The notes beneath the pieces were generated by a model that made no database searches, was not told the origin of the DNA, and saw only the letters and a list, made by a program, of their open reading frames with translations. From assembly GCF_026151205.1 (NCBI RefSeq), contig NC_087073.1, positions 18,566,837 through 18,630,836 on the forward strand: DNA of 64,000 nt, written 5' to 3'. Shown here piece after piece: positions 1,271-63,770 of this stretch. Each line of letters opens with the position of its first letter. Position 1 is the first letter of the stretch. Position numbers and translations under genes: made by a program. Origin of the DNA: Bolinopsis microptera (taxonomy: Eukaryota > Ctenophora > Tentaculata > Lobata > Bolinopsidae).

Positions 1271-4200
1271 CTGATCTGAATCGGTACGGAACTATCGAGT
1301 CTAGCTACTTGTGTGAGAGCAATCGCGAGGAAAGGATAGAGAAAACTGATCTGTACGTCAAGCGAGTCAAAGACATTCACTTTATCACTCAGTCTGAGGT
1401 GGACTCTATGAAGAAAGCGCTAAGGATTCAGATAACTGAAGATTACGAGGGAGTCCCAGAGATGATTGGCAAGATAAAAATCAAAGTTTGTAACACGTAC
1501 GTTGCTGATAGGAAGGGTCTCGCTGGGCCATCGGGCGATCAACTGTGCTTTTGTGGGAAACCAAAGGAAGATGAGAAACACCAGGCATTTTCAGAGTCTA
1601 AAGAGTGGACAAGTTCGAGACATACCAAAGATGTAAAGACAAATACTTGGGGTAAGGTGGCCCTGGCTGGGTGCCAAGCTAACTTTGTGAGGTTATGTGA
1701 AGACACGAGTATGAAGAGAATAGAGGAGTTGTTGATGAATGTTTACAAGATGAAGAAACCTGGTGTTATCGTCTCTGTTTTAGGTTTGTTCGTTATTCTG
1801 GCTTCTCACTTAAGTACGAATGCAAATTCTTTATATTTATCTTCTGAATGCAGATTAATATTTTCTTATAATTATATTTATCTTCTGAACATACGAGTAA
1901 ATTGGCTCTTGTTTAAATGTCTTGAACCAAAAAACTGTTTACTTTACTTACTTAATAATAAACACCATTACAAAACAGTGCTAATTTACAATTCCAGGCA
2001 GCACATCTGAGCTGGAGATGTCAGATAAACTGGAGGATGAGATAGAGAGGTGTCTGCCTAAAGCTGCTGCTGCCTGTGATGCCTGGATGTTTACACCTGG
2101 AGTAAACGGAGGCTGCGGGAAACTCGTGGGTAATGGAATCAGGACTTACGGTTTGTCGCTCTACACCGTCGGGATTGTAGCCTGGTCCTCTTTAAACGAT
2201 AGAGTAAGTTTAGATTGGGTTACTGAATTAAGATAACCATTACCAGACTTCTTACAATGTTATTGAGATTACTTGAACGAAATATCTCGTGATTTTAACT
2301 AGGATTTGCTATTGATATCCACTTCTATCGTGACAAAGAACTTGCACAGGCCCGAAAGAGATTGACTGATCAGACCAACGAACTCGGAAATACCATCCCA
2401 TACCCCACAAATGTAGGGGAAACTGATGTTAGACATTTGGAACAAAACCATACCACTTTCTTGATGGTGGACAATGGACGAGACGATGTCTCTAGCTGCA
2501 TCAAAGCTGCCACAGATTTAAGAATAAAGTTTGAGGTCCGTTAACTCATGCCATTGACCATTTAGTAATCAGTAGCTCTATCAATTCTATAAATTTAGTT
2601 ATCTAAAGCTAAGCGTGAAGTTTAATGTTATGTGTTAGGACTTATACATCCATTCGTACTTACGTTTTAGCTGTGAAAATCTTTATTGCTATTAAAATCT
2701 GAATTTTCAGAATCATATGAAGAAAAGTGCGGATGTTCCGGTGATTAGTGTCCTGAACAGAGGAGGACTAAAGTCTGTGTTTGTGGTAACTCAGAGGCTA
2801 TGTGATGACGATACCGTGATAGTACTGGCTAAAAGTGCTGGATTAGCAAGCTTTATTCAAAAGTTGAAGGAGCACTGCATCTGGGTAAGATTATTCAAGA
2901 AGTTAATGTGGTTAATTAATAGTGCCTTCATAACTATCGGTTCCATGCTCAAAATAGAAGCAGTTGTCAAACATCTACCATCTGTTATCTGTTATCTACT
3001 ATCTGTTATCGATATCATCGAACAGTTAAATAGTTTTAAATAATCTTATAGGTCAACAAGAAATTGGAATCTTCTGACAAGCTACAAGAAAAGACAAAGA
3101 GAGCCAAAGAACCGTGCAAGTGTATTGAAAGTGGAGGGGTGTTTAAAGCCGACCTAAGAGCCTGTATCCACATCACCAGAAAGATGGCTAAACATCTTTC
3201 CATGGAAGGAGTGTCACAGCAAATTTGGGATATGATGTATGACTTCGCTGAAGTGTGTGTACAGCGGCTGTCACAAATATTCATTTACGATCAAAGATCA
3301 AAGACCGAGTTCGATCAATTGCTTCTTGATGCGATGGTCGAAAATGACTCCGGGGTGGGAAAGAAATTAGAATACGCTTTTGAACTAGGAACAGTTGAAG
3401 TTGTTGAAAGCATGCTGAACGACTCAGCTGAACGACTGCGATCAAAGACTTTAACCAACCTAATCATGAAAGCAATCATCATGAACCGCCCAAAGATGGT
3501 CAAACTTTTCCTGAACACCTGTCAAAAGTCTCAGCTCCTGCAGCTGAAGTTCAACATGCCGGTGCTGTACGACAGTGCTCTCTATTCCTACGGGGGAGGT
3601 CACTTAGTACGACTCATCACATACTGGGTCAGTGATAGTATAATTCCGGGCGCTACAAGTCTTGGAATATATCGTTACGACGAAACTGAAAGTATTGATG
3701 AGGGGGTTTGTGAGGAGACAGATGAGCGCTCTTTTGGGGCCATGTGGAACCCTCAAGCTATCAGACTCATTGATAACCTGATAAACGAATTAGCAGGAGA
3801 CTCCTTTAATTCTTCTGTTGGTTGCGAAGAGGACCCCTTCATGGAGCTCACTTTATGGTCTGTCATGATGTTAAGGAGGGAGATGGCGCTGATGTTCTGC
3901 AAAAGATCTGAGGAGCCTATCAGATGTGCTTTATTGTGTCTGAAGCTACTGTCACAGATGGAAAAGAGGAACAATGTGTTGGTTAACACGGAAGAGGATG
4001 AGAAGGTCTCGGAGATGAAGGAAGCGTTTGAGAGTCTGGCTATTTGTACTTTGGAAGCATGCTATGCTGAGAACCCTGAAATGACTTTTGCAGCTGCGCG
4101 TTCTCGGTGGACTCGAGTCAAGAACTACGATTATCTGGAACTTGCGTTTGAGGCGGAGTCAAAACGATTTATCGCGCATCCAGCTTGTCAGGATATCTCA

Positions 4201-6578
4201 GAGAGAAGATGGAGAGTAGGATTTGTGAAAGACGAAGGTTTCTGGAAAGTTCTTCTCATATGTCTTTTCCCACCTCTTATCCTAATTCCTGGTCTCATTG
4301 AATTCGATGTGTTTGCAAATCGTCATCAAGATGGACATGAACGAGCGTGGTGGGACAAAATTTTTGTTCGGTTCAAGATAGTCGGAAAATCGCCCATGAT
4401 AAAGTTTTGGATGAGTGCAGTTTTCTCCTTGGTGTTTCTAATACTTCACCTCCGAGTGCTGTACTTGGATACGAAACCTGTCTTGAATCCTGAAGTAGAC
4501 ACTGTCAGTTGGCCCTTCATCATCCTCGTTTTCGTTTGGTTCTGTCTGTTGGTCATTGACGAGGTTGGTTGTTTACTTTTGGATATAATATATTTTAAAC
4601 CCTTTATATTAAGTCCTATTAAGTCTAGTACGTTTTTTATTACCGTTTCTCTGCTTGTAGGAAATGTAATTCACTGAACTAACACTACCTCTCTTTCAGA
4701 TTATACAGGTATTTACCGAGAAACTATTTTATTGGTGGAAGAACGTTTGGAACAGGCTCGATATGGTGAACTACCTCATATTCTTTGTTGGTTTGATTCT
4801 ATGTATGGCGTACATTTGCACCGATGATGGAGGAAATTGTTCTCTTTCGTACAAAGCAGACGGTAGGTCTTATTGCTGATTCCCTCTACATTATAGATGC
4901 CCAAAATTAAAAAGAATGCGTATTCAACAAAGCAAAGTTTTCGATATGGCATAATATGACAAAGCAATCATTTGATTTCAACCTATTCAGGAGCTCTCTA
5001 CTGCCGGGATCCTGCGAAGGCTGTGTGTAAAGATTCCGACGCTGTGAAAGTTCATGCGGGTAGGATTTTATTGAGTATTGTGACGGTCACAATGTCCTTG
5101 AGATGGAGCGTGTTCATAACCAGTGATCTTACCCTCGGTCCTATTGTGCTCATGCTCTTCGAGGTTAGTTCTTATCTGTATAAATTATTACCTCTGGTAA
5201 TAATCTATGAATGTTGGACTGTTCAGAGGAGAGATGTTTTGTTGTAGAACATTTCAAATTTTTAGATTTTTAGCCCATTCAAAGTCTGCGGAAAAACATT
5301 AGAGTACATAGCGATGCAGTTGAGAAGGTAAATCTCCTATTTTGTCGCTTATGTGTATTTAAAACTGCGTCAACTCTTTCTCAGATGGCCACAACGTTCG
5401 TGAACTTCTTCATGATATTCACTGTGGTTCTTCTTGGTTTTGGAGCTGCGTATATCGGCTTGCTTGTAGAGGTTGGAACTTTTAGCATGAAGAGAAACGT
5501 TATCGGCATGGTCTATTACACTTACTTCCAGGTATGTATTCACTTTTTACACGTTAAAAACAGCTAACAAGTCTAGTTTATCGTTGTTGACTTTTGGAGC
5601 TAATTAATGAAATAATTGAGCCTAGTTAATCATTCAGGAATAAAAAATACCAAACATTCTCGTCTTATTAATTTTTAATTCGTGACCCTCATCCCAACAG
5701 AGCCTGGGAGAGTTGTTCCTTGAAAACCTGGAGAGTCCCGGAGCTTACTATCTGACCAACAATCCGAACGTGACTGAATCTTGGTACCTAGATAGTGATG
5801 TTAACGGAGCCTACTACTATGTCGCTCTCTTCCTACTCTTCATGTTCATGATTATTAGTAATCTGATGTTGCTTAACATTCTTATTGCTATGTTCACGGA
5901 GAGTTACGAGAAGATTAGTTCTAACCAGAAAACCATCTGGAAATTCCAAAGGTAACTGGCTCATTGTGATCTCAAATTTAGATTTATAGTCTGATTATAG
6001 GCCAAAGAAATGAAATGATCGTGTTTCCTCGACCATCCTGTTTGCTAGCTTTTTAATTGGTTTTGTTATACTTATAGTGAATACTGGTCAGTGGTATCGG
6101 TAATATGAAGTATACTATTGCATATAAAACGCATTCTCTTTCAGGTACAGTTTGTTGAAAGACTACGAGGGCAAATACCTGCCGGTTCCGCTTAACGTTA
6201 TTCACTATCCATTGTCATTCACAAGATGGATATGGAAAAAGTTTAACCCTAAGAATAAATATATCAACCCTCTAAGGAAGAGTATAGACAAACATTTAAG
6301 GTTCGTTAATGTATTTTATTCCATTTCTTGTTATTTTTCTCATGTACGAGTCAGTAATTTCAGTACATCCATTAATTTCAACACGATAATAGAATTAAAA
6401 TCAATGATGATAATCGTATATTTTAATAAGTTAGCCTAATTACGAATTAACGACCATTATTTAATCCCACAGAGCGTTCGTTAAAGAAGGTCTGCAAACA
6501 TTCTTAAGGCTGTATGGGGAGCGACAGGAGGAAGACTCTAACTCTTTAAAGTTTGCCAAATATGCTCAAGGACTCTAG
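1153..6578 (+). CDS. TRPM-like (melastatin family) cation channel
   Basis: Exons by eye: 1153-1783, 1998-2203, 2350-2535, 2711-2884, 3052-4563, 4700-4862, 4991-5163, 5274-5327, 5385-5531, 5701-5951, 6145-6300, 6473-6578; phases close to 1252 residues. The N-terminal half carries the TRPM homology region (CFCG...HQ, VRLCEDTSMKRIEELL, VIVSVLGG-like, FTPGVNGGCGKLVG, HTTFLMVDNG, PVISVLNRGGLKSVFVV). S1 lies near KFWMSAVFSLVFLILHL, followed by S2-S3, a short linker exon, S5 (FVNFFMIFTVVLLGFGAA), a pore exon beginning SLGELFLE, S6 (ISNLMLLNILIAMF) and a TRP-box-like IWKFQR. The protein ends about 100 residues after the TRP box, so there is no NUDT9-H (as in TRPM2) or alpha-kinase domain (as in TRPM6/7). 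The family forms tetrameric plasma-membrane cation channels; selectivity cannot be read here. The ATG at 1153 is the first in-frame start, but see the upstream ORF. Confidence 0.87.
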
Positions 6579-10825: not shown

Positions 10826-10898
10826 GGAACAGGACCGTCGACAGGACCGTCGACAGGACCGTCGACAGGCAACAGGACCGTCGACAGGACCGTCGACG
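10826..10898 (+). repeat. 12-bp tandem repeat (acaggaccgtcg)
   Basis: Five units of acaggaccgtcg, with one spacer (acaggca) after the third, merging into the dispersed GC-rich block. ORFs called here on both strands are products of the repeat. Confidence 0.9.
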
Positions 10899-11027
10899 AG
10901 TCCAACTCGGCGCGCGTCCTGGTAGGTTGTAAACCTACAACACGCGCCGAGTTGGACTCGTCGACGGACCGACGGTCCTGGATACAGGATACACGGAACA
11001 AATATTTTACGGGTATCACCCGTTAAG

Positions 11028-11193
11028 TTAACGGGTGATACTCGTAAAATATCTGTTTCATATATTGGACCGTCGACGAGTCCTACTCGGCGCGCGTCCT
11101 GGTAGGTTGTAAACCTACAAAGTACGCGTAGACTCATGTGAATTGAAAAAGCTGCCGAGTTATGTCAGATATTTTACGAGTATCACCCGTTAA
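11028..11193. mobile_element. Short TTAA-flanked MITE
   Basis: A 166-bp unit has 28-bp perfect terminal inverted repeats, starting TTAACGGGTGATACTCGTAA and ending with its complement. It directly abuts another inverted terminus (10997-11026), giving a head-to-head cacccgttaagttaacgggtg junction. TTAA at each end is the target of piggyBac-type transposases, so a non-autonomous relative is likely; no transposase gene is in the window. Confidence 0.75.
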
Positions 11194-13260: not shown

Positions 13261-14390
13261 CTAGCAGCGGTAGGTTAACTCCCACCACATCACCTTCTTG
13301 GCTGACCGGTAAAAGATTAAGAGGTCCGGTCTCAGCCGTGTCTTGGCAATCTCCTCTGGGAACTTCGGTTGCTCATCAAGATCAGATATCACCACCCAGT
13401 CCCGAGATGCACTCAGGATACCAAAACTACCCTCTGCACTCTTCTTCGCTGGAACCTTCTTGCTTCCCTCAGGCACAAAATCAATACATTGCTTAGTCTC
13501 CTTCACTCTATTCTTAGAGGTGTTCACTCGGCGTTCACAATGGAAAGTCACGTGGTCTGTTAGTTGTTTGAGAACCTTATCATGCCGCCACCTGTTACGC
13601 CCTTGGCTCAGCGAGACCCTACAACCGGATATAATGTGTTGTATGCTCCCTGCCCTATCCTCAAACAGCTTGCAAAGTCCATCCTCTTCTTCATTCCACT
13701 TCGATGCTAAGGCTGGTGTGACCACAGTACCGTAAGTCGCACTGAGCATAAAACCTGTGAGCGAATCACCGGACCATACTTAAAGAGTGTGTGCCAGCTC
13801 ATGTCCGTCTTCATAACCTCTTCCCTTCACTGACCCCATCTTGACTGCATCTCAAGAGAGCCGCATTGAACTTCCCTTTCATGCTCGAGGTTTCTTTTAA
13901 CTTTCTGAAGGACCTCAGCTTGTTGTTCCCGGGTGTTCATCCTCTCTGTGGTACTCCTGAAAGTATAAATTTTATTTCAGAAAATTCATCACCTACTTTT
14001 ACTCTCATTGACCTCCCAACTAAAAAGTTCTCAATGATATCAATAATATCCTCGGGAATCCACAAATTCTTTAGCTTAATTAGTAACCGGTAGTGTGGTA
14101 CACTGTCAAACGCTTTAGAAAAGTCGAATTAGAGTATATCTGCACAACCACCTTCTGCCAACAAATCATTGACGGCATCTATGGACATTGGACTCCAGGA
14201 GGTTAGATAAGCAAGATCTGCCTTTCATGAAACCATGCTGCTTCCTGCTCAACAGCTGCTCAACACCATAGAGTATATACTCCCTAAGAAGTTTCTCATA
14301 AGTCTTGCACATGATACAAGTCAGTGACACCGGCCTATATTCATTAGGGTTGTGTACTGACCCCTTCTTGTGCAAGGCCACGACAGTGGC
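13261..14390 (-). pseudogene. Decayed LINE (reverse transcriptase plus C-terminal region)
   Basis: Read on the minus strand from 14390. First comes an RT segment (KKGSVHNPNEYRPVSLT, QHGFMKGRSC), then the catalytic-core neighbourhood DFSKAFDSVPH at about 14100-14130 preceded by an in-frame TAA, then a segment ending SGVPQRG before another stop. After a gap comes a 162-codon frame ending at 13261, with HIISGCRVSLSQGRNRWRHD and a PDLLIFYR...WWELTYRC tail typical of some animal LINE polyproteins. The stops and gaps show it is dead. It lies just upstream of the IRAK-PNP gene on the opposite strand. Confidence 0.85.
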
Positions 14391-14411
14391 GGTCTTTAAA
14401 AGTTGAATCAG

Positions 14412-14625
14412 AGTTGATTTTTTATTTGAAAATTCAATTAATTATTATATTTATAAATAAAGCGTTACATTTCAGCCATGCAAAATTACAATGACATATT
14501 TCGATAAACTAATTCATAAATGGTACTGCAATATAAGTTGCTTAATGTTTGGCCGGATGACAACTAACTAAAAAAGAAAAATAAACTTGATGACATAATA
14601 ATTAATTCGGCTGAACCAACACATA
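14412..14625. repeat. Interspersed repeat, copy B
   Basis: Compact copy of the repeat at 7135-7590, with the same order of conserved blocks from aattcaattaattatta to aattcggctgaaccaaca and without the GC-rich insert. It ends about 145 bp before the kinase start codon, so it could contribute to that gene's promoter or 5' leader. Confidence 0.75.
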
Positions 14626-14769: not shown

Positions 14770-17700
14770 ATGGCACCCAAGAAAATTAGTGATGTTCCCT
14801 ATTCATGCATCAGTGGTTTGTGTCAGATTCTAGATTCCTGCAAAGATCCCCGGCAGAATTGGCGTGGCCTTGCTGAACGGTTGGAATTATATAATGCTAA
14901 AGACATAGCAGGTTTTGAAAGAAAATTAATGCAGCTGGATGGCAGTCCAACTAGAAGTTTGCTCACTGATCTTTCTATGACCGGAAGAAACATTGATGAA
15001 CTTTTCACTCTATTTTACAAAATGCAAAATGAGGAGGCGTTTCAGTTTCTTAAGACATCAGGGCAGGTATCAAAATCTCTTGCCAATAACTTAAAAATGA
15101 AACCGAAACCAAAAGTGGTGAATAGTGCACCTCAAAATCATCCCAGATCTCATTATCCAGATGCTCGTTCAATTATGAAGTACATTGATCAGGAAAATAA
15201 TGAATTTGACCCAACTGTTGCCAAAGGAAATTCAAGTGATTTGAGTCTTTCCATTGTTGCCCAACAGAAAGAGTCAATGACAGATGACATACTACCTGCC
15301 CTGCGGAACAAAGGCCTGATCGAATTCAGTTACAATGAAGTTTGTCAGGCTACTGGCAATTTCAGTGACTGTACACTTACCGGTGGGTGTAAATTAGGTA
15401 TGGGGTCTTTTGGGACTGTCTTCAAGGGTGATTTGAAGAATACAACCTTTGCTATCAAAAAGTTGAATCTGAACAATGACATGCATGCTCGCTCAGTTGG
15501 ACTAAGTCAGTTTGCTGTCGAAGTTTTAACTTTGTCTAAATATAGGCATCCAAACCTGTTAGAATTAGTCGGATATTCACTTGATCCTAGGGCACCCTGT
15601 CTAGTGTATTATTATATGGAAAAAGGTTCTCTCGCAAGCGTCCTTGCTTCTCCAGAGGCAAGTCAAATTCCTTGGGATACAAGATTGCGCCTATCTGATG
15701 ACATTTCTAAAGGGTTGGTGTTTTTACACACAGCATCTGACAAGCCATTGATACACAGAGACTTAAAATCGGCCAATGTTCTGCTAACAAATGATTATCA
15801 GGCTAAGATTGGTGACTTTGGTCTAGCCAGATTGGGATCCGATCATTCTAACAGTATTGTCCAAACAAATCGGTTACAGGGAACTATGGGTTACATATCA
15901 CCTGAAGCTGCTAGAGGGAATATATCCACAAAAACAGATGTTTTCAGTTATGGAGTACTGATGTTAGAGTTAATTACTAATCTTAGTGCGTTTGATCCTA
16001 ATAGAGGATATCAAAATCAATCTCTAGTAGGTTTGATTGAAAAGAAGTTGAGTGGTAATGGTGACTCATTGAATATTATATCAGCTGAGGGTGTAAAATG
16101 GCCCGAAATTGTTGCCAAGGAATTCCTGAACATTTCTCAATCATGTTTTGAAGATCACAACATCAGACCAACTGCTCCAGTCATACTACAAAAAGTGTCG
16201 GATATTATTCAACTCTGTTCTTCGAAAAACGATTTTGAAGCTTGGATTCAGCCAGGGAGTTTAACACTTAACCCTGACAAGCAGGTATTTGAAAACAGGA
16301 AAACAATTCTAGTTCTCACTGGAAATAGACAACAGAGTAACCTGATTCAAAGCAGAATTGGAAAGTTGCTAGAGGGAGAATCGAACACAAGTTCTCTGCG
16401 CTCACTTCAGGATATGGAATTTCACTTCGTCACACTGCCAGATGCTATTATTATAGTCTGCAATCCTATATCTGATTTCAACAAATGTCTGCAAGACTCT
16501 ATCAATCGTTTTAATCCTCATTTGGTAATTTCTTCTGGGCTTTGCCATGGTGTAAGAGGAAAGGTAAAGTGCTTACATTTTATTTCATGACAAGTTACTC
16601 TTTTTAAATTAGTTTATGAATCTTAGTATAGGATTAAGTTGATTTTTTATCAACATCTTAAATCTGATCTACTTATTTGTATTCCAAGAAACGTGTTAGA
16701 TTCGGTAATAACACAAACAGGTTCCAACAAAACCTGTAAACATTTTATATTTCAGGTAAACCTGTGCGATCTGGTGATATCAGAAAGCACTTCTCTTGGA
16801 AACGTCACATATTCCGTAACAAACGAAGTGACGTCCCTCCTACAGACGATACAGAAGAGCGATGCAACTGGTGATGCACTGTGGAAGTTACCTGGACTCC
16901 TGCCAAAACCCCCTGCTCGAACTGCCTCCCAAACTTTACTGTGGATCAGCAAGCTTATCATGGAGGTCAAATCAGTAAGTAATAAATTAATCTTGATTTT
17001 CAGTTCATCACATCTATTTATGACACAATGACTGCTTTATAAATATCAATCGCTTTTAAAATTTAAATAACGATAAGAAATAAAATTACTAGAAGTAATT
17101 CGTCTAATCAGAGATAAGATATCAATAATATATTCAACTATTTAATTCGCGAATATCCCTGTACTGACAGATTATTGAAAATTAAGCTCACATTCAGTAA
17201 ATCAAAACCACTGAATTGTATAAATTAAAATTATTCTGATGTTTGACCATTCAGGAAAAACCAACAGAGTCTCACTGGTTGAAGCAAATAAACTACAATC
17301 ACGGACTGGGACACGATTACTCTGGGTTCATCGAGAATATGAAGATCTACTCGGCAAAGTACCCGTGTCTACATTCAGCTAATATGACACTAGTCTATGA
17401 TCCTATAACAGATACTCTTGATCCAGACATCAACCTCAAGGTTCGTGTTTCCGTTTGGATTTAAAGTTATTTTCCGGACTTTTTAAGTTTTGTTTTTGCA
17501 GCTAGTCTCCGTACAAACGGCGTAATTCAATCTTCTCTCATTCAGTATCGTAATATACATGTACTACATTATACATAGTACATCCTCCCCTAAATATTGG
17601 TAACAATAAAATTATTAACATAACACTATTAATACACACATTCCAGGCGTCAGTGTCAGCCATGTCTCCTGATAGTATACATCTTCGCAAGAGAAAACTG

Positions 17701-18160
17701 AGCCCCAAGTTACATATCGGGTCTCTGAGTCCTTCTGATATTCCTTATACACCTGGAGACGCCTTCACTCGCTTCAAACTCTGTCCTGAGGTATGCTATG
17801 TTGAGTTTAATCGGTTTCTGAAGAGTTATTCACATATTTGATATTCATCAGCTGTTGTTTAAACAGAATTTTCTGTTGAAATTTAAACTATGTATTGTAC
17901 AAGTGACATTGACTATACCGGAAACTAACGTGTCTCCCTGTTTACAGAGTTTGCTGGGATGTGATGTTGAGACACTGCATCTCTACAGTATGTGTGTCAA
18001 AACCGAGACACCCTCTGTCTCAATCAAGAGCGTGTGTGGGTTCTCAGATCCGTACGAAGACACGAGGTTTAATGAAATAGCTACTAATATGAGCGCCCTA
18101 GGAGTGGTTCAGTTTATCGCTACATACCTCAGTCCGGAGTCTAGATCCTGTGTCAGTTGA
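14770..18160 (+). CDS. Death-domain IRAK/Pelle-like kinase fused to PNP/UDP nucleosidase-like domain
   Basis: Exons 14770-16563, 16756-16974, 17255-17440, 17647-17790, 17948-18160; in phase, 851 residues. Residues ~8-98 form a Death domain. Residues ~185-490 are an IRAK-type kinase: glycine loop LGMGSFGTV (from 209), Lys230 in AIKK, a tyrosine-rich hinge (CLVYYYMEKGSL), HRDLKSANVLL (His329, Asp331), DFG at Asp349, and GTMGYISPEA. From ~511 to the end lies a nucleoside phosphorylase/nucleosidase-like fold: KTILVLTGN strand, ISSGLCHGVRGK then VNLCDLVIS, DVETLHLYSMC, and SVCGFSD with the Asp typical of these enzymes. The kinase and the first ~90 residues of the PNP part share one uninterrupted exon, so the fusion needs no splicing. 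IRAKs act downstream of MyD88/Toll-type receptors; PNP domains occur as effectors in some STAND/NLR immune proteins. Whether the PNP part is catalytic is unknown. Confidence 0.87.
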
Positions 18161-18880: not shown

Positions 18881-19610
18881 CTTAAGGGGGCCGGGGGAGG
18901 GGTCTTCATCAAAATTCTTTCGAAATCGACTTTATAGTTGTTTCTGATAGAGGGGAGTGATATCTATCAGCTGCTTTTGGTCCCATGGAAAAATATTGTT
19001 CCTAGCCGAAATTATCGCTGGTCAAAGGTCAGCGCTTATGTGTAATTGTATTGCGCGAGCGATTTTCAATCGCGCGTTCTGAAAATCGAGTCTAAAAATC
19101 TATCTTCTCCTACATTTTTTGAGCAATCACCCTCAAACTTTCAGGATATGTTCTTTGGATCAGTAAGAAGAGAACTCTAGAGCCAGAATTTTGAGTTAGG
19201 CCTTTAAAGATTTTTAATCCGATTTTGAAATTCTTGGACCTCTAAAAATTAAGGTCCAAGAATTTCAAAATCGAATTAAAAATCTTTAAAGGCCTAACTC
19301 AAAATTCTGGCTCTAGAGTTCTCTTCTTACTGATCCTAAGAACATATCCTGAAAGTTTGAGGGTGATTGCTCAAAAAATGTAGGAGAAGATAGATTTTTA
19401 GACTCGATTTTCAGAACGCGCGATTGAAAATCGCTCGCGCAATACAATTACACATAAGCGATGACCTTTGACCAGCGATAATTTCGGCTAGGAACAATAT
19501 TTTTCCATGGGACCAAAAGCAGCTGATAGATATCACTCCCCTCTATCAGAAACAACTATAAAGTCGATTTCGAGAGAATTTTGATGAAGACCCCCCCCGG
19601 CCCCCTTAAG
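18881..19610. mobile_element. 730-bp near-perfect palindrome (foldback element)
   Basis: Arms of about 360 bp run from cttaagggggccggggg at 18881 to the matching end at 19610, with a ~10-base centre near 19242-19251. The arms differ at only a few positions (an indel in the G/C tract, ctttcg against ctctcg, agcgct against agcgat). No ORF. Likely a foldback-type non-autonomous element of recent origin, or a palindromic amplification. If transcribed it would form a long hairpin. Confidence 0.92.
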
Positions 19611-20341: not shown

Positions 20342-23300
20342 ATGTCAAGTTCTCGGCTGCAAAGTGTACTTGCGCGCCCACTGCGTAAGTTGGTACAAGC
20401 AAGATGTAGTAGCAGTAAAGCTGTTGTTGCCCCTATAGTAACCTCTGACTCTTATCGAAAAGTAAGTTCTTCGACATGATAGTGCACTCTATCGTGTTGT
20501 CATATCACGATAGAGTCAGCTTTCGAAATCGTGACTGATGTAACTAAGACATTCAAAAAATTGAAAAGAGAGTGTGAATTTTAATGATGACGTAATTTCG
20601 AAGATGAGGCAACCATCATGATTTGACAACACTACAAAAATTGCCGTATATTTAATACTCAAGGTACGAATTATCAATAAACTAATTTCCTCAGTCCCTA
20701 CTAAACATAAACCCGACCGAAGTGACTACGCTGAGCAACGGACTACATGTGTGTAGTGAGTACATTGACACTCCTACTGCCACTGTCGGACTCTGGATCA
20801 ACGCTGGTAGTCGCTGGGAAAATGCCGGAAATAATGGTGTCGCTCATTTCTTAGAGCATCTCGTTTTTAAGGTGATTAAACTTTTAAATGATGGTTTTAT
20901 TTTATACCTGTGGGATCGTGGCTGCTGGAACTTTTTCGAGCATTTTGATTAATAATATAGACATAATCATTTGTTTTTTGGCGCAAGAAAAGAACCTCTT
21001 AACTATTGTGATAGTGATTTAAATGGTAACTGACTGAATCTCATTCTTTCAGGGTACATCCAACAGAACACAACACGAACTAGAATTAGAAGTAGAAAAC
21101 ATGGGAGCTCATCTTAACGCTTACACTTCTCGGGAACAAACTGTTTATTACGCAAAGTGTTTTGCTAAAGATGTGGACAGGTCCATGAATATCCTAGCTG
21201 ATATCTTGCAGAACCCAAGACTTGATGAAGGAGCTATCGATAGGGAACGACACGTCATTTTGAGGGAGATGCAGGTAATTTATTATAAAGTTATATAAGA
21301 CATATCAAGAGCTAGAAAATGTAACTAGTTGTAAAACTTGCTGGTACCCCAGCCTAATTTTCCACACTGTATTGCAACGCACCCGTTGAAATAATATGGT
21401 CTAGACGTTTGTTTTGCTCATTTTTATGTCCTTTCAAGTTTCAAATCCAACTGTATGGAGGAAATTGTAGGACACATGCGAGAAACATTATTGTTGCACG
21501 GGATTATACCTCTATTCTTGTAGGTCACCTGTCTTCATGAATTATCTTGACATCATGCTGCATGAATGCTCGCTCCATTTTGCACAGATTGTGGATTTTG
21601 TCGATCCTCTTTCGTCACTAAAATCAAGATTACGGAATACAGACTAACGTTCTGTGAATTTTATTATCGTATAATAATTTTGATTTACGATTTACGGATG
21701 AGATTAAACACAATAAGGGAGGGTTCGTATATTATGTCACGATTATGGGGGAGGGGGTTTAGAAATTGGAAAATAAGCTGACGTATTTTAATTTGTTATT
21801 TATCAACTTCCTGACGGAGGGGGATTTTAAAATGGCGAAATCTTGATGACGTAAAAACATAAACGGTCCCTGCATGAAAAACTTGCTATGACATGCTGCT
21901 TTTAAGTAACCCCGTTATCGTTCGTGACCAGTTTCCAATTTTTCTATCACCTTCGCACAGCGAGGTTAAGAAGTTGAAGGGGATAGTTGGGTATTTTCAG
22001 AGCAAAAAAGTACGAGGAGTTCTTTTAATTGACGGAAGGCGCTAACGCCGAATCAACTCTTGTTAAACCAAGGGCACGGTATTTTTGCGCCAAACGCGCG
22101 CAGTTCTGTCGACGCGCGCGTACTCTATTAAAGTTTTGTAACGACGGGAATGCATTCGTAATTGAATGGTAATTGATTTTCTTATTATCATGTCAATTAC
22201 AACAGTTAATGAGGTAACCGTTAATGAACCTTAGGAGGTGGAAACGAACCTACAGGAAGTGATATTCGATCACCTGCACGCTATTGCCTACCAAGGAACC
22301 CCATTAAGCTACAACATACTTGGACCTACCGAAAACATCAAATCTATTGATAGGTAACATACGTTTGTCTTTTTCTATTAATTTGAGTGTTTGCAGTCAA
22401 CTAACGGGCGCCTGCACAGTGGTTATGATTCATACCGGAAGTTACCTTCGTGTTATTTATTAAGGAAATAACGGAAACATGTCACACTACGCACATAATG
22501 AAACTCTTAAGAATTCTAAATCACGTCAGTGTGTTTGTTTGACGTAATTTTGAATTCTCTAGAGTTACATATACGAGCATTATTTTTTCCGGCTTCTACC
22601 TGACATGAGTGCGATAATTCAAAAATACTGGTAGTTGAGTGTTTCCGTGCTTAAAGATAGTTCCAGGGTTCCACCAAGATCAGGACAAACACGGAAGCTA
22701 CATATTTGGCTACATATTTCCCATATTTTTTATAAGTCGCAGTAAATTAAAGTTTGCGGAAGATATATCCTGTTAAACACTGTACCTGTCGGTTATCCTT
22801 ATACATAATATTAAGGAAGTGTTATTGATTACCTGGTGTTTAACATCTGATTTGACTTCAGAGCGGATTTGTTAGACTACATTGGTCGCCACTACCAACC
22901 ACACCAGATTTATCTGGCAGCAGCTGGAGGAGTAGATCATGCGGAACTGGTCAAACTGGCTGAGAAACATTTCGGGGATATGCAAACTACAAACGTTTCA
23001 GAGGTCGAATATCCTGCAGCCAGATACTCCGGATCTACGGTTAGTCAGTAAAAGATAGAACTTATGTTTACAATTTCGACTTAAGTTGCACTCTAGAACT
23101 TCCAAATTGGACAAATTATGTTTGAGACTGGACTTGTTCAAAGTTTAAACCGTTTATTAATTTGATAATTTCCTCAGATGAACAACAGAGATGACGCAAT
23201 GGGTCTCGCTCACGTAGCTCTGGCTGTAGAAGGTTGCAGCTGGACAAACCCTGATTACTTCGCTATGATGATCGCCAATACTGTGAGTAGCAAACCAATG

Positions 23301-51755: not shown

Positions 51756-54700
51756 CTAAGTTTGTTTCTGTATGTGCTGGCCGGTATCTATGGAGTGGTA
51801 GACTGTGGCGCTGTGAGTATCCGGGACGCCGATCACGTGACTCGTCTGCTTGATCTCGTTGGAGAGCTGGTGGTAACCGTTAGTGTGAGGGGTGAAGTAG
51901 GGGCTTGTGGTGGTGGAATACTGGCCGTTACTGTAAGGGAGGTGGGCGGGAAGTTGCACTGCCGGCTTTATGTACGTAGGTAGGCACTGACTGGCAGGAC
52001 CTTCGTTTCTCATCCGCTTCATCGATACCTAATTGTTATCTAGTTAGCATTTCTTTTGGAGGGGGGTACATTAACTAATTTGTCTATCTAGACCATTATG
52101 TATTTACTCTAATTTTCGACCAGCAATCAATAGTAACCCTCTGACACCGATGTAAACATTTCTTTGAGGGTTATCCAAACCATATTTAGGAATAGGACAA
52201 ATACTAATCTTAATTTTATTGAAATCCACCCCCCCCCCCCCCCCATTTATATGTTGTTGGTTAATGTGCGTTTAGTTATACTCGTGAGCAAGTAATGATA
52301 AGAGAACATAAAACTGAAGCAGATCATTTTCAACACAAAACTCCAGACAAGAAAGAAATTTGAATTAGCAGAAATTACCCGAACCTGCGCACAAGAGTTA
52401 AGATTCCCAGGAGACGGACATCGTTTTTCAGATCCGCAGCTGTAAACGGACACACCCTTTCTCGGAGATGCGACGTGTTGCTGATGTTGATGCTGCGGAT
52501 GTTGTGGATGCTGTTGTTGTTGCTGATGTTGTTGCTGCACATGCTGCTGCTGCTGCTGCTGTGGGTGCTGCGGCTGTGGATGCTGCTGCTGCTGCTGCTG
52601 CGGTTGCTGCTGCCGCATTCCTTCCACAACTGTAAAGGGGAATATTCATGAGTCATTGATAACTATCCTAATTGTAATATCAAAACCGTGGTAATTGATA
52701 TCGATCACTCGTCGCTGGTTGCTCGATAATTGGTTTCCTGTGCGCGCCACTAAACGCAGTTACACGTGTCGAGAATCAATCTAGCCAGCAATTTAACCAT
52801 ATTTTAGATTTAATGAGACATCGTTACCTGACAGTTCAATTTTGCTAGGTTTTATTTTGCAGGAGGAATTGTTGTACCTTTGTACTAATCTTTTAAATAC
52901 CTAGACACCAGGATGCCTTTAAACAATGAAGCGAAGTCCGAGATGAAAGCTGCCTTCAAATCATTTGACAAGGACGGCAGTGGGACGCTAACCGCCACCG
53001 ACTTGGCGAAGGCAATGAACTCGGTTGCAGGGGGACTTACCGAGGCACAGTGCACGGAACTAATCAATCTGGCTGATGCGGACGGCGACAAAAAGATGAA
53101 TGTTGATGAGTTTATGAAGATTGTCGAGGAAGGATTGGCTCTGTACGAACAACAGAACCCGGGAGCGGACCTCATTTCAGAGGAGTTCAAAAACTTCGAC
53201 GTGAACGGCGACGGATCGATCGACAAGGACGAGCTGAGACAAGCCATGATCGATATGGGGGAAGAGGTAAATGACGACGAACTGGAGGCCATGTTCAACG
53301 CTGCTGACGCAGACGGCGACAAGATGATTTCAGTTGAGGAGTTCAGGAAAATGTGCGGGCATTAATTACCACTTCAACCAGACAATTATTGAACTTATTG
53401 TTTGCATGAGTACGTGTTAAGAGCGTGAATAACCTGATACTTTTAATAAAATATTTTAACGGTACTATTAGTCCGAATGTTTGTAAGAAATCCATTTCGT
53501 GAAGCGGGCCTTCGACGAAAGAGATGTTTGTTGAAATTTGAATAGGCGATCTGATTATTATATTTATGCTATGAATAGCTCGGTTTACCAAGATGCGATT
53601 ACATTCAATAATTTTAAAACATATACGTAATCTGTTTTCAATATTCTGGAATTTTGTTGTTGACTTCGACAATTTACGTCTTTCAAATTTGTATGCCTAT
53701 TGTCTGCTAATCACAGATACACATCAGTAGTAATTCACTCAACATGACCTCAGGCTGTAAAATATAGCAGGTGGCACTTAGCGCAGCATTTCTCCAGACT
53801 TCATAAACGGACCGTTCCTAGTTTTAAGTTTCAGCTTATCATCATGATCTCAAAATAACTGGATAAGTCTAAAATGAAAATATCTCTGAAAGTTTAAAAG
53901 ATCTCAATACCACAAACCTATATTATTATTGTTGTTGAGGTGTAGGGTCGGACTCTGTTGGGTGTAAGTGGCGGAAACAGGGATCGAGGTGATCTGCTGA
54001 GGCCGCTCTGTGTAACCCGTTGATACTGGCATCCCCACCACAGGCTCCTCCGCATGCACCGGCACGGACCTCAAGGTCACATTTGGCACCTGATGGTGTG
54101 CCGTGACACCAACACTTGGTCCGATGTAGTTACTGACGTAGCCGGGCTGTCCCATCACGATAACATTGGCGGGTGTCGTCACCATAACGTTTGGTGTCTG
54201 TGAGGCTGTAACCATGACATTGGGAGTGCTAGCGGGGTGCTGGAAAGTGGAAGGGGTGGTAATGATTTGGTTAGGCGGAGCAGCAGCATGGGCCGGAACA
54301 GTAGTGACCAGGACACTTCCAGGTTGTCTGATGGGGACACTCCGGATTCCGTTAGTGGGGGGCGGCGAGGATATGGTCTGCAGGAACTGGCCCGGCTGCT
54401 GGGGCTGCTGCTGCGTGGTTTGCTGGATGTAAACAGGTTTCACATCCTCGGGATAGGAACTATTGTACGTGTTATTAGCGGAGTTCTGGAACTGACACTC
54501 CGGGGTGGGTGGGGGGTTGAAGCGAGCGGGGGCACGGAACCGGCCGTGCTGCTCCTCAGTTGAGATAGAGGGCTTGTAACCTGGGAACAGATCATTGAAG
54601 GAGTTGCCATTGGCGTTTCTCTGGTTGTTTTGTTGAACGTACTCAGTGGTGGTAAAAGCGACGAAGTTAGGGGCTGGTGTAGGTGGGTTGAAGTAAGGAG

Positions 54701-62412: not shown

Positions 62413-62607
62413 TATTTATTCAAAAGCCCTTTGTGGTAACTTTCGGAATTTAACAATATAACACAAAATATTTGATTACGTGACCATTCTGTAGAAAGTT
62501 TAAAGAATTTAATGAAAATTCATCTATTCACATTCAGTCATCTTTGGTATTTTTATTTCAGCAAACTCGACAATTCGGCATATTTTTGTTGATCAAAAGT
62601 CTACGCT
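62413..62607 (+). other. 5' flank of 7TM receptor gene
   Basis: About 195 bases separate the TIR element from the receptor start. ttttatttcag at 62552-62562 looks like a splice acceptor in a 5' UTR. Confidence 0.4.
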
Positions 62608-63770
62608 ATGTTTCTCCAGTCTATTATGGCATCTACCGACGATTCGGATGCTACTCTGACTGATGCAGCACGATACACCTGGTCGAGTTGGGTCATATTC
62701 GTTATCTTCGCATCACTCACAGGAGACAGCATCATACTCATCGCCTCAGTCAAGTACAAAGCATTCAAACTTCACAAGGTCATAGTGACCATTATCCAGC
62801 ATGTCGCCCTGTGTGACCTGTATTCAACTACCTACACGCTGGTGAATGTTGTTTCACTCATCACAAACAGGAATATCAACAGATACTTCTGTTACATGGC
62901 ATTCTGGACAACTTATCAGGGTGTTATAGTGAGTGTAAACCTTATCTGTGCCATGTCAGTCAGCAAGCTAATCCTCCTAAAATTCCCTCTGAAATCCGCG
63001 TCATGGTCCGGACGCTTTACTCACAGATTCTGTGCAGTTATTTGGATGGCTTCCCATCTTCTCCCTGCTTTGCATATCTTAGTTGACAAGGAAGGGGTTT
63101 CCTTCGACCACAGGATCCACCAATGCATGTACCAGTACACCTCCGAGATAGGCAAGCTGCTCCTACTTGTAACAACACAGCTGGCGCTTCTAGTCCCAAA
63201 CCTTATCTCCAACATTGCCACGTTACTCTTACTAGGAGAGGCGAGAAAAGGGGCTAAAAAGATGAACAGAGGACTACGTCGACAAGGGCTCATCACAGTA
63301 ATTATTACTGCCACAATCTACACCCTCTCTTATTTACCCTTTGCAATCTACTGCACCGTCTACCTTATCGACCTGGCTAGAGAGGAGACCGTTGGATCGG
63401 AGCAGTTCTACATTTACTATTACAGGGTTGCTAGCAACCTTGTATATCTAAATATCATCACAAATTTCTTCGTGTACACTTTAACAGTGAGGAGTTTCAG
63501 ACGCTGGCTGAAAACCAAGTTATTCAACTTTAAGGGTATTAAATTACTTTTCTTCATCATGTTGTAACACTGGAATATCGCTTCTTTTTTTTTGCAGAGT
63601 GCAGACACGTTATTTATTAATGATTGTTGATTGTTGAGTACTTTTAATACAATCTCAAATTGTCAGGTGAAGCTTCCGAGACGAGGACTGGAGGATCAGC
63701 CGGTGGAAGTAGCAACTGTCGGACAAAAACAATCCCCCCAGTAAGCCAACATGAACACACATTTGTCTAA
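62608..63770 (+). CDS. Rhodopsin-family 7TM G-protein-coupled receptor
   Basis: An uninterrupted frame from 62608 encodes seven hydrophobic segments: TM1 (WVIFVIFASLTGDSIILIAS, with GD in place of the usual GN), TM2 (IIQHVALCDL), TM3 with a Cys upstream and SKLILLKFPL where most receptors have a DRY motif, TM4 (CAVIWMASHLLPALHIL), a second extracellular Cys (HQCMYQY), TM5 (LLLLVTTQLALLVPNLI), TM6 (LITVIITATIYTLSYLPFAIY) and TM7 (NLVYLNIITNFFVYTL, a degenerate NPxxY). Unspliced, it stops at 63567 (319 residues). I prefer splicing 63535 to 63667, in phase, giving 343 residues with a Gly/Ser/Thr-rich tail ending HTFV, a class I PDZ-binding pattern. AATAAA follows at 63850. The ligand cannot be inferred. 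Confidence 0.85.

Follow-up and report, generated by a model that had tools for sequence, protein, structure and literature searches.

The window, i.e., the whole 64,000-nucleotide stretch analysed, comes from a 264.65-Mb assembly in 232 contigs. It carries a gene whose five-exon model is predicted and known here from the DNA sequence alone (Table 1). Each exon is stop-free and has a length divisible by three, the introns have GT/AG ends and all lie in phase 0, and the joined frame has 851 codons, in agreement with the exon coordinates and junctions proposed in an earlier note on this DNA. From its N-terminus, the encoded protein would comprise a Death domain, a kinase of the IRAK type and a domain of the PNP superfamily. 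As the earlier note had claimed, the kinase runs unspliced into the PNP domain, the start of which is confirmed to lie inside exon 1.

Other coding stretches in the window were located by profile matches (Table 1); the families matched make an animal the most likely source of the DNA. On the minus strand just upstream of the gene, two reverse-transcriptase pieces (RVT_1) are found in different frames (E 4.4e-5 and 6.6e-7). Downstream, a foldback is formed by two 347-nt arms, 99% complementary and separated by 10 nt; it is probably a recent inverted-repeat element. An accgtcgac motif, read by eye, is repeated in another part of the window, inverted copies included.

Table 1. Features located in the window (positions are those of the window).
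Feature	Position	Strand	Remarks
Exon 1	14770..16563	+	Death domain (residues 17-95), linker, IRAK-type kinase (~184-480), PNP-superfamily start (~506-598)
Intron 1, phase 0	16564..16755	+	Relatives diverge at same point in 8/8; absent from P0009
Exon 2, residues 599-671	16756..16974	+	Finishes PNP motif GLCHGVRGK/VNLCDLVIS (slash, exon junction); remainder without match to bacterial PNPs
Exon 3, residues 672-733	17255..17440	+	Aligns to P0009; other PNPs unmatched
Exon 4, residues 734-781	17647..17790	+	PNP C-half match begins
Exon 5, residues 782-851 and stop	17948..18160	+	PNP C-half; Glu-789 kept, Gly-812 at catalytic Asp position
TRPM2-like coding stretch	3052-4674		Profile match
Repeated accgtcgac motif	10840-11110		
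RVT_1 pieces	13940-14441	-	
Foldback	18895-19598		
M16 peptidase coding stretch	20689-20949		Profile match; mitochondrial processing peptidase in our own reading
EF-hand coding stretch	52889-53362		Profile match
7TM chemoreceptor-like coding stretch	62593-63564		Profile match

In the whole protein, the Pfam Death model is matched at residues 17-95 by a narrow margin (E 9.3e-5, 22.9 bits for a cut-off of 22.6). Among the relatives retrieved by protein searches (P0001-P0009), P0009 and P0008 score above this cut-off (27.4 and 24.3 bits) and P0003 below it (18.4 bits). The Death region also aligns to the N-terminus of IRAK4. Kinase models are matched strongly (whole protein; PK_Tyr_Ser-Thr, residues 207-425, E 1.2e-39; Pkinase, residues 208-474, E 8.9e-39), and the PDB search ranks IRAK4 first, with a match that covers residues 13-415 (E 2.6e-52); among the best 60 of 2284 PDB matches, the first 26 are all IRAK4. 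The motifs FAIK, HRDLKSAN and KIGDFG are present in the window protein and in all nine relatives, so that the catalytic motifs of the kinase, as read from the sequence, are intact. Tyr-280 aligns to the tyrosine of the IRAK4 CLVYVYM segment, which we take to be the gatekeeper, and Thr-366 to a threonine of the IRAK4 loop, presumably T345. The N-terminal Death domain and a kinase nearest to IRAK with a gatekeeper-aligned tyrosine place the protein in the IRAK family. These features and the loop threonine are shared with the IRAK4/Pelle kinases, from which the window protein differs by about 350 further residues that make up the PNP-superfamily domain. A TRAF6-binding C-terminal domain is reported for IRAK1, 2 and M, and IRAK4 is reported to lack a domain in that place (PMC3498205). 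A single string of the window protein, PTESHW (residues 674-679, at the start of exon 3 in the PNP region), fits the PxExx-aromatic/acidic pattern of TRAF6 ligands and is absent from P0009; this match is likely due to chance and gives no sign of binding.

The identity of the C-terminal region depends on the sensitivity of the profile used. Pfam PNP_UDP_1 (PF01048) does not list the whole protein and gives 11.2 bits (E 0.25) on a trimmed piece, for a cut-off of 25.1. On the same piece it is surpassed by LANC_like, also under its own cut-off (15.9 bits, E 0.0051, cut-off 23.2; E 0.034 with the whole protein). LANC_like was rejected: it covers a single short motif, while the PNP matches follow one another in order across both halves of the region. 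The PADLOC profile PDC-M60C, in turn, is matched significantly, with E 6.5e-12 for a 303-aa piece, 1.1e-11 for residues 488-851 and 1.1e-10 for the whole protein, and the PADLOC profile "Effector, PN-superfamily" is matched with E 1.2e-6.

Bacterial counterparts were sought with residues 488-851. Against plasmids, tblastn returned 13 records, individually non-significant (best E 0.1). The six of these PNPs that were examined all score above the PNP_UDP_1 cut-off, and their matches to PDC-M60C have E <=7.4e-41. One of them is PNP-EAD1; in the five others, the PNP gene (~1.2 kb) is preceded by a large gene and a gene of ~0.45-0.49 kb, and three of these five PNP proteins show a weak receiver-domain match, under the Pfam cut-off. 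Detocs is described as a three-gene system whose PNP effector cleaves ATP (PMC11249213). From their layout, we read the five plasmid loci as Detocs-like, their large genes being known by size and position only, and on the same basis we read PDC-M60 as Detocs. In a wider search, the GTDB genome contigs gave a single matched locus, from a bacterial MAG, which corresponds to the kinase (residues 208-403, 28% identity) and was set aside. Viral contigs gave zero matches.

With a profile built from the six plasmid-borne PNPs, hmmsearch gives 54.7 bits for residues 499-851, as compared with 3.8 bits for the best of 1000 shuffles of these residues. The two matched stretches of the window protein are in the correct order, and the stronger one (residues 577-610) includes the point at which exon 1 is joined to exon 2 (598/599). 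Taken in parts, residues 499-598 score 14.0 bits and exons 2-5 25.7 bits; P0009 and P0008 score 17.5 and 14.3 bits. With hhalign, the C-half aligns to the same six proteins at E 4.7e-13 and the N-half is left unaligned. These six PNPs were found using the window protein as query, which biases their profile in its favour; the PADLOC profile is free of this bias. Sequence searches of the PDB with the PNP part retrieved MTA/SAH nucleosidase only, weakly and below significance (3/3 matches, best E 0.51, and 2/2, best E 0.16), as did a profile of the fusion family (7/7 matches, best E 0.064). The six NCBIfam matches, far under cut-off, are all to nucleosidase or purine nucleoside phosphorylase models. 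An AlphaFold2 model of the PNP part of P0009, computed from a nine-row alignment, is of low confidence (mean pLDDT 39.8, pTM 0.27). On these sequence comparisons, the C-terminal region qualifies as a remote PNP-superfamily domain. The earlier note would have taken the lack of a PNP_UDP profile match as refuting its claim: Pfam alone does give this outcome, and it is only through more sensitive comparisons (PDC-M60C, hhalign and the six-PNP profile) that the verdict is overturned. The fusion of Death domain, IRAK-type kinase and PNP-superfamily domain is thus borne out by Pfam, the PDB, PDC-M60C, the six-PNP profile and P0009.

Protein searches for relatives of the fusion returned eight sequences (P0001-P0008) and then P0009; a third search, with residues 490-789 of P0009 as query, returned P0009 alone and hence nothing new. 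A search of the genome with residues 488-851 found the gene's own five exons only (5 matches at E <=10 among 11 candidates), a search that distant relatives could escape. The Death, kinase and PNP architecture, for which the earlier note had suggested looking in other genomes, recurs in nine relatives, the PNP domain being represented by its start only in eight of them and by its greater part in P0009. P0001-P0008 correspond to exon 1 (Death domain, kinase, PNP start), and their common frame stops after GVRGK. In all eight, the next codon is a Val codon (GTN) and the sequences then diverge from one another, as expected of a conserved GT donor; exon 2 of the window gene itself starts with Val, so that it is the divergence, and not the Val, that is telling. 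In P0009, a single intron-free frame of 789 residues (52% identity overall) encodes the Death domain, the kinase and the greater part of the PNP domain. This frame runs through all four junction positions, up to about residue 800 of the window protein, and thereby gives independent support to the splice joins. After TKTQ, before the final part of the domain, the P0009 frame diverges, which may reflect an intron, a flaw of the contig or a truncated domain. All ten sequences have exon 1 as a single open frame, and the four phase-0 introns of the window gene are confined to its PNP part; the difference from P0009 could be explained either by intron gain in the PNP part or by a retrocopied or horizontally acquired fusion. 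Were intron 1 retained, eight residues would be added after exon 1, giving a 606-aa protein with the C-terminus KVKCLHFIS.

Conservation differs from one part of the protein to another. Between P0008 and the window protein, identity is 58% in the Death domain, 41% and 44% in the linkers, 81% in the kinase and 69% in the PNP N-half; for P0009, the corresponding values are 52%, 39% and 28%, 65% and 52%, and identity is 42% over residues 599-801, where the frame is kept. The PNP N-half is more conserved than the Death domain in seven of the nine relatives and equally conserved in two (rounded values), so that it looks like a domain under selection rather than a remnant.

The active site of the PNP domain was examined by way of its bacterial relatives. 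When the six-PNP profile is compared with the PDB, all 56 sequences at E <=0.01 are named MTA/SAH-type or aminodeoxyfutalosine nucleosidases, or purine nucleoside phosphorylases. In four alignments, the motifs CALkkE, DmEa and KsVvD of the six PNPs sit on A-M-x-x-E, M-E and S-D of MTA/SAH nucleosidase. We take the aligned acidic sites to be E12, E174 and D197 of the E. coli enzyme, with catalytic roles. This Glu, Glu, Asp set is invariant in the six bacterial PNPs. In the window protein, the motifs TGNRQQS, DVET and SVCGFSD place Gln-522, Glu-789 and Gly-812 at these sites; one of the three acids is thus retained and the MTAN-type set is incomplete, in a reading built on alignments of ~20% identity, with a register at the first Glu that may be off by one residue (Gln-522 or Gln-521). 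Position 522 is Gln in eight of the ten sequences and His in two; position 521 is Gln in three, His in three, Asn in one, Asp in one and Glu in P0008 and P0009. In P0009, the sole relative whose C-half can be read, position 789 is occupied by Asn. As the C-halves compared are one complete (window) and one partial (P0009), Gly-812 may not be general. A single miscalled base at this codon was rejected as an explanation, since changing GGG to GAT or GAC needs two substitutions. With two of the three aligned active-site acids replaced, the window protein seems to have lost the known type of purine nucleosidase chemistry. The earlier note's view of the domain as a putative nucleotide-hydrolysing effector is not supported, given Gly in place of the catalytic Asp, Gln in place of the first Glu and Asn-789 in P0009.

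Taken together, the sequence comparisons lead us to favour, with some reserve, the interpretation that the gene encodes an IRAK4-like Death-domain kinase joined to a PNP domain of the Detocs-like effector type, and that this domain, having given up nucleoside cleavage, tunes the kinase as a module for clustering or for binding a ligand (nucleotide sensing). It appears more likely that the kinase is active and is regulated or clustered by a pseudo-nucleosidase than that the protein destroys nucleotides. It is nevertheless conceivable, if rather unlikely, that the domain is an active nucleotide-hydrolysing effector, switched on by kinase activation and draining ATP or another nucleotide. PDC-M60C, which is matched significantly, stands for a candidate anti-phage effector, the plasmid-borne matches examined are Detocs-like, and the Detocs PNP effector cleaves ATP (PMC11249213). 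Moreover, Glu-789 is retained, Glu occurs at position 521 in P0008 and P0009, and chemistry via other residues is possible. Nonetheless, the Asp found in all six bacterial relatives has given way to Gly-812 and the first Glu to Gln-522 or Gln-521, and Glu-789 is itself lost in P0009.

The replaced residues could also be taken as the mark of a PNP part in decay, or the main transcript could stop in intron 1 past the kinase; in either case the domain would have no role. Intron 1 retention does yield a 606-aa protein, and the two IRAK4 models reported for the sponge Amphimedon are of 390 and 475 aa, too short for Death domain, kinase and PNP domain together (PMC3498205). Such a loss of role is improbable given that the five exons are all open and in phase, that the PNP N-half is conserved at least as well as the Death domain in all nine relatives (in P0008, 69% against 41% and 44% for the linkers) and that P0009 maintains its frame, with 42% identity, between residue 599 and about residue 800. 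That two adjacent genes were joined in error is harder still to accept. The exon chain is a prediction from DNA, which leaves room for such an error; yet the PNP domain starts within exon 1, unspliced, and in P0009 a single open frame runs from the Death domain through the kinase and across most of the PNP domain.

For the favoured interpretation, that of a non-cleaving module tuning the kinase, the following mechanism can be proposed. By analogy with MyD88-IRAK4, the Death domain would join a receptor-proximal Death-domain assembly and bring kinases together. The kinase would then be activated through trans-phosphorylation at the loop threonine Thr-366. PNP relatives form dimers or larger rings, and the PNP domain might set or report the assembly, perhaps with a bound nucleotide, and so tune kinase activation. 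The two matched PNP halves are separated by 162 residues (611-772), as compared with 79 in the bacterial profile; this stretch, partly conserved in P0009, could harbour a regulatory contact. An immune role of the protein is suggested by the families to which its domains belong. More speculatively, a bacterial-type anti-phage ATP nucleosidase domain may have been domesticated within an animal kinase of the Toll/IL-1 type and be catalytically dead, binding a nucleotide or nucleoside or clustering the kinase, in which case the IRAK-like kinase would sense nucleotide state directly; we hold this possibility to be tentative.

Comparison with known systems delimits what is new. With Detocs-like effectors, the window protein shares a related PNP domain and, in common, the motifs GxCxGVxGKVN and KSVCxFxD-like; it differs from them in that this domain is fused to a Death domain and a Ser/Thr-type kinase, with two of three active-site acids replaced. 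No Response_reg match was obtained in the window protein (Pfam, E <=10), and one intron-bearing gene outside any operon stands in place of the gene trio that defines Detocs, in which the PNP effector is of the response-regulator type. From MTA/SAH nucleosidase, to which sequence matches are weak, the window protein differs by the replaced acids and by a longer mid-stretch. The PNP effectors of fungal NLRs and of other immune-like proteins differ in their partner, which is here a Death-domain kinase. No IRAK-PNP fusion was found in the literature as covered by titles and abstract openings, most subscription journals lying outside that coverage, and to our knowledge an IRAK-type kinase and an anti-phage-type PNP domain have not been described jointly. 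We class the protein as an IRAK-like kinase whose C-terminal domain is new.

IRAK-type kinases stand at the head of Toll/IL-1 signalling. Bacterial Detocs likewise couples a PNP effector to a kinase cascade, the two being distinct proteins; in the window protein, kinase and PNP domain share one chain, and this chain seems to have shed the chemistry. If its PNP fold reads a nucleotide or sets the oligomeric state of the kinase, the protein would offer a simple example, open to testing, of how an enzyme once used as an effector can become a regulator.
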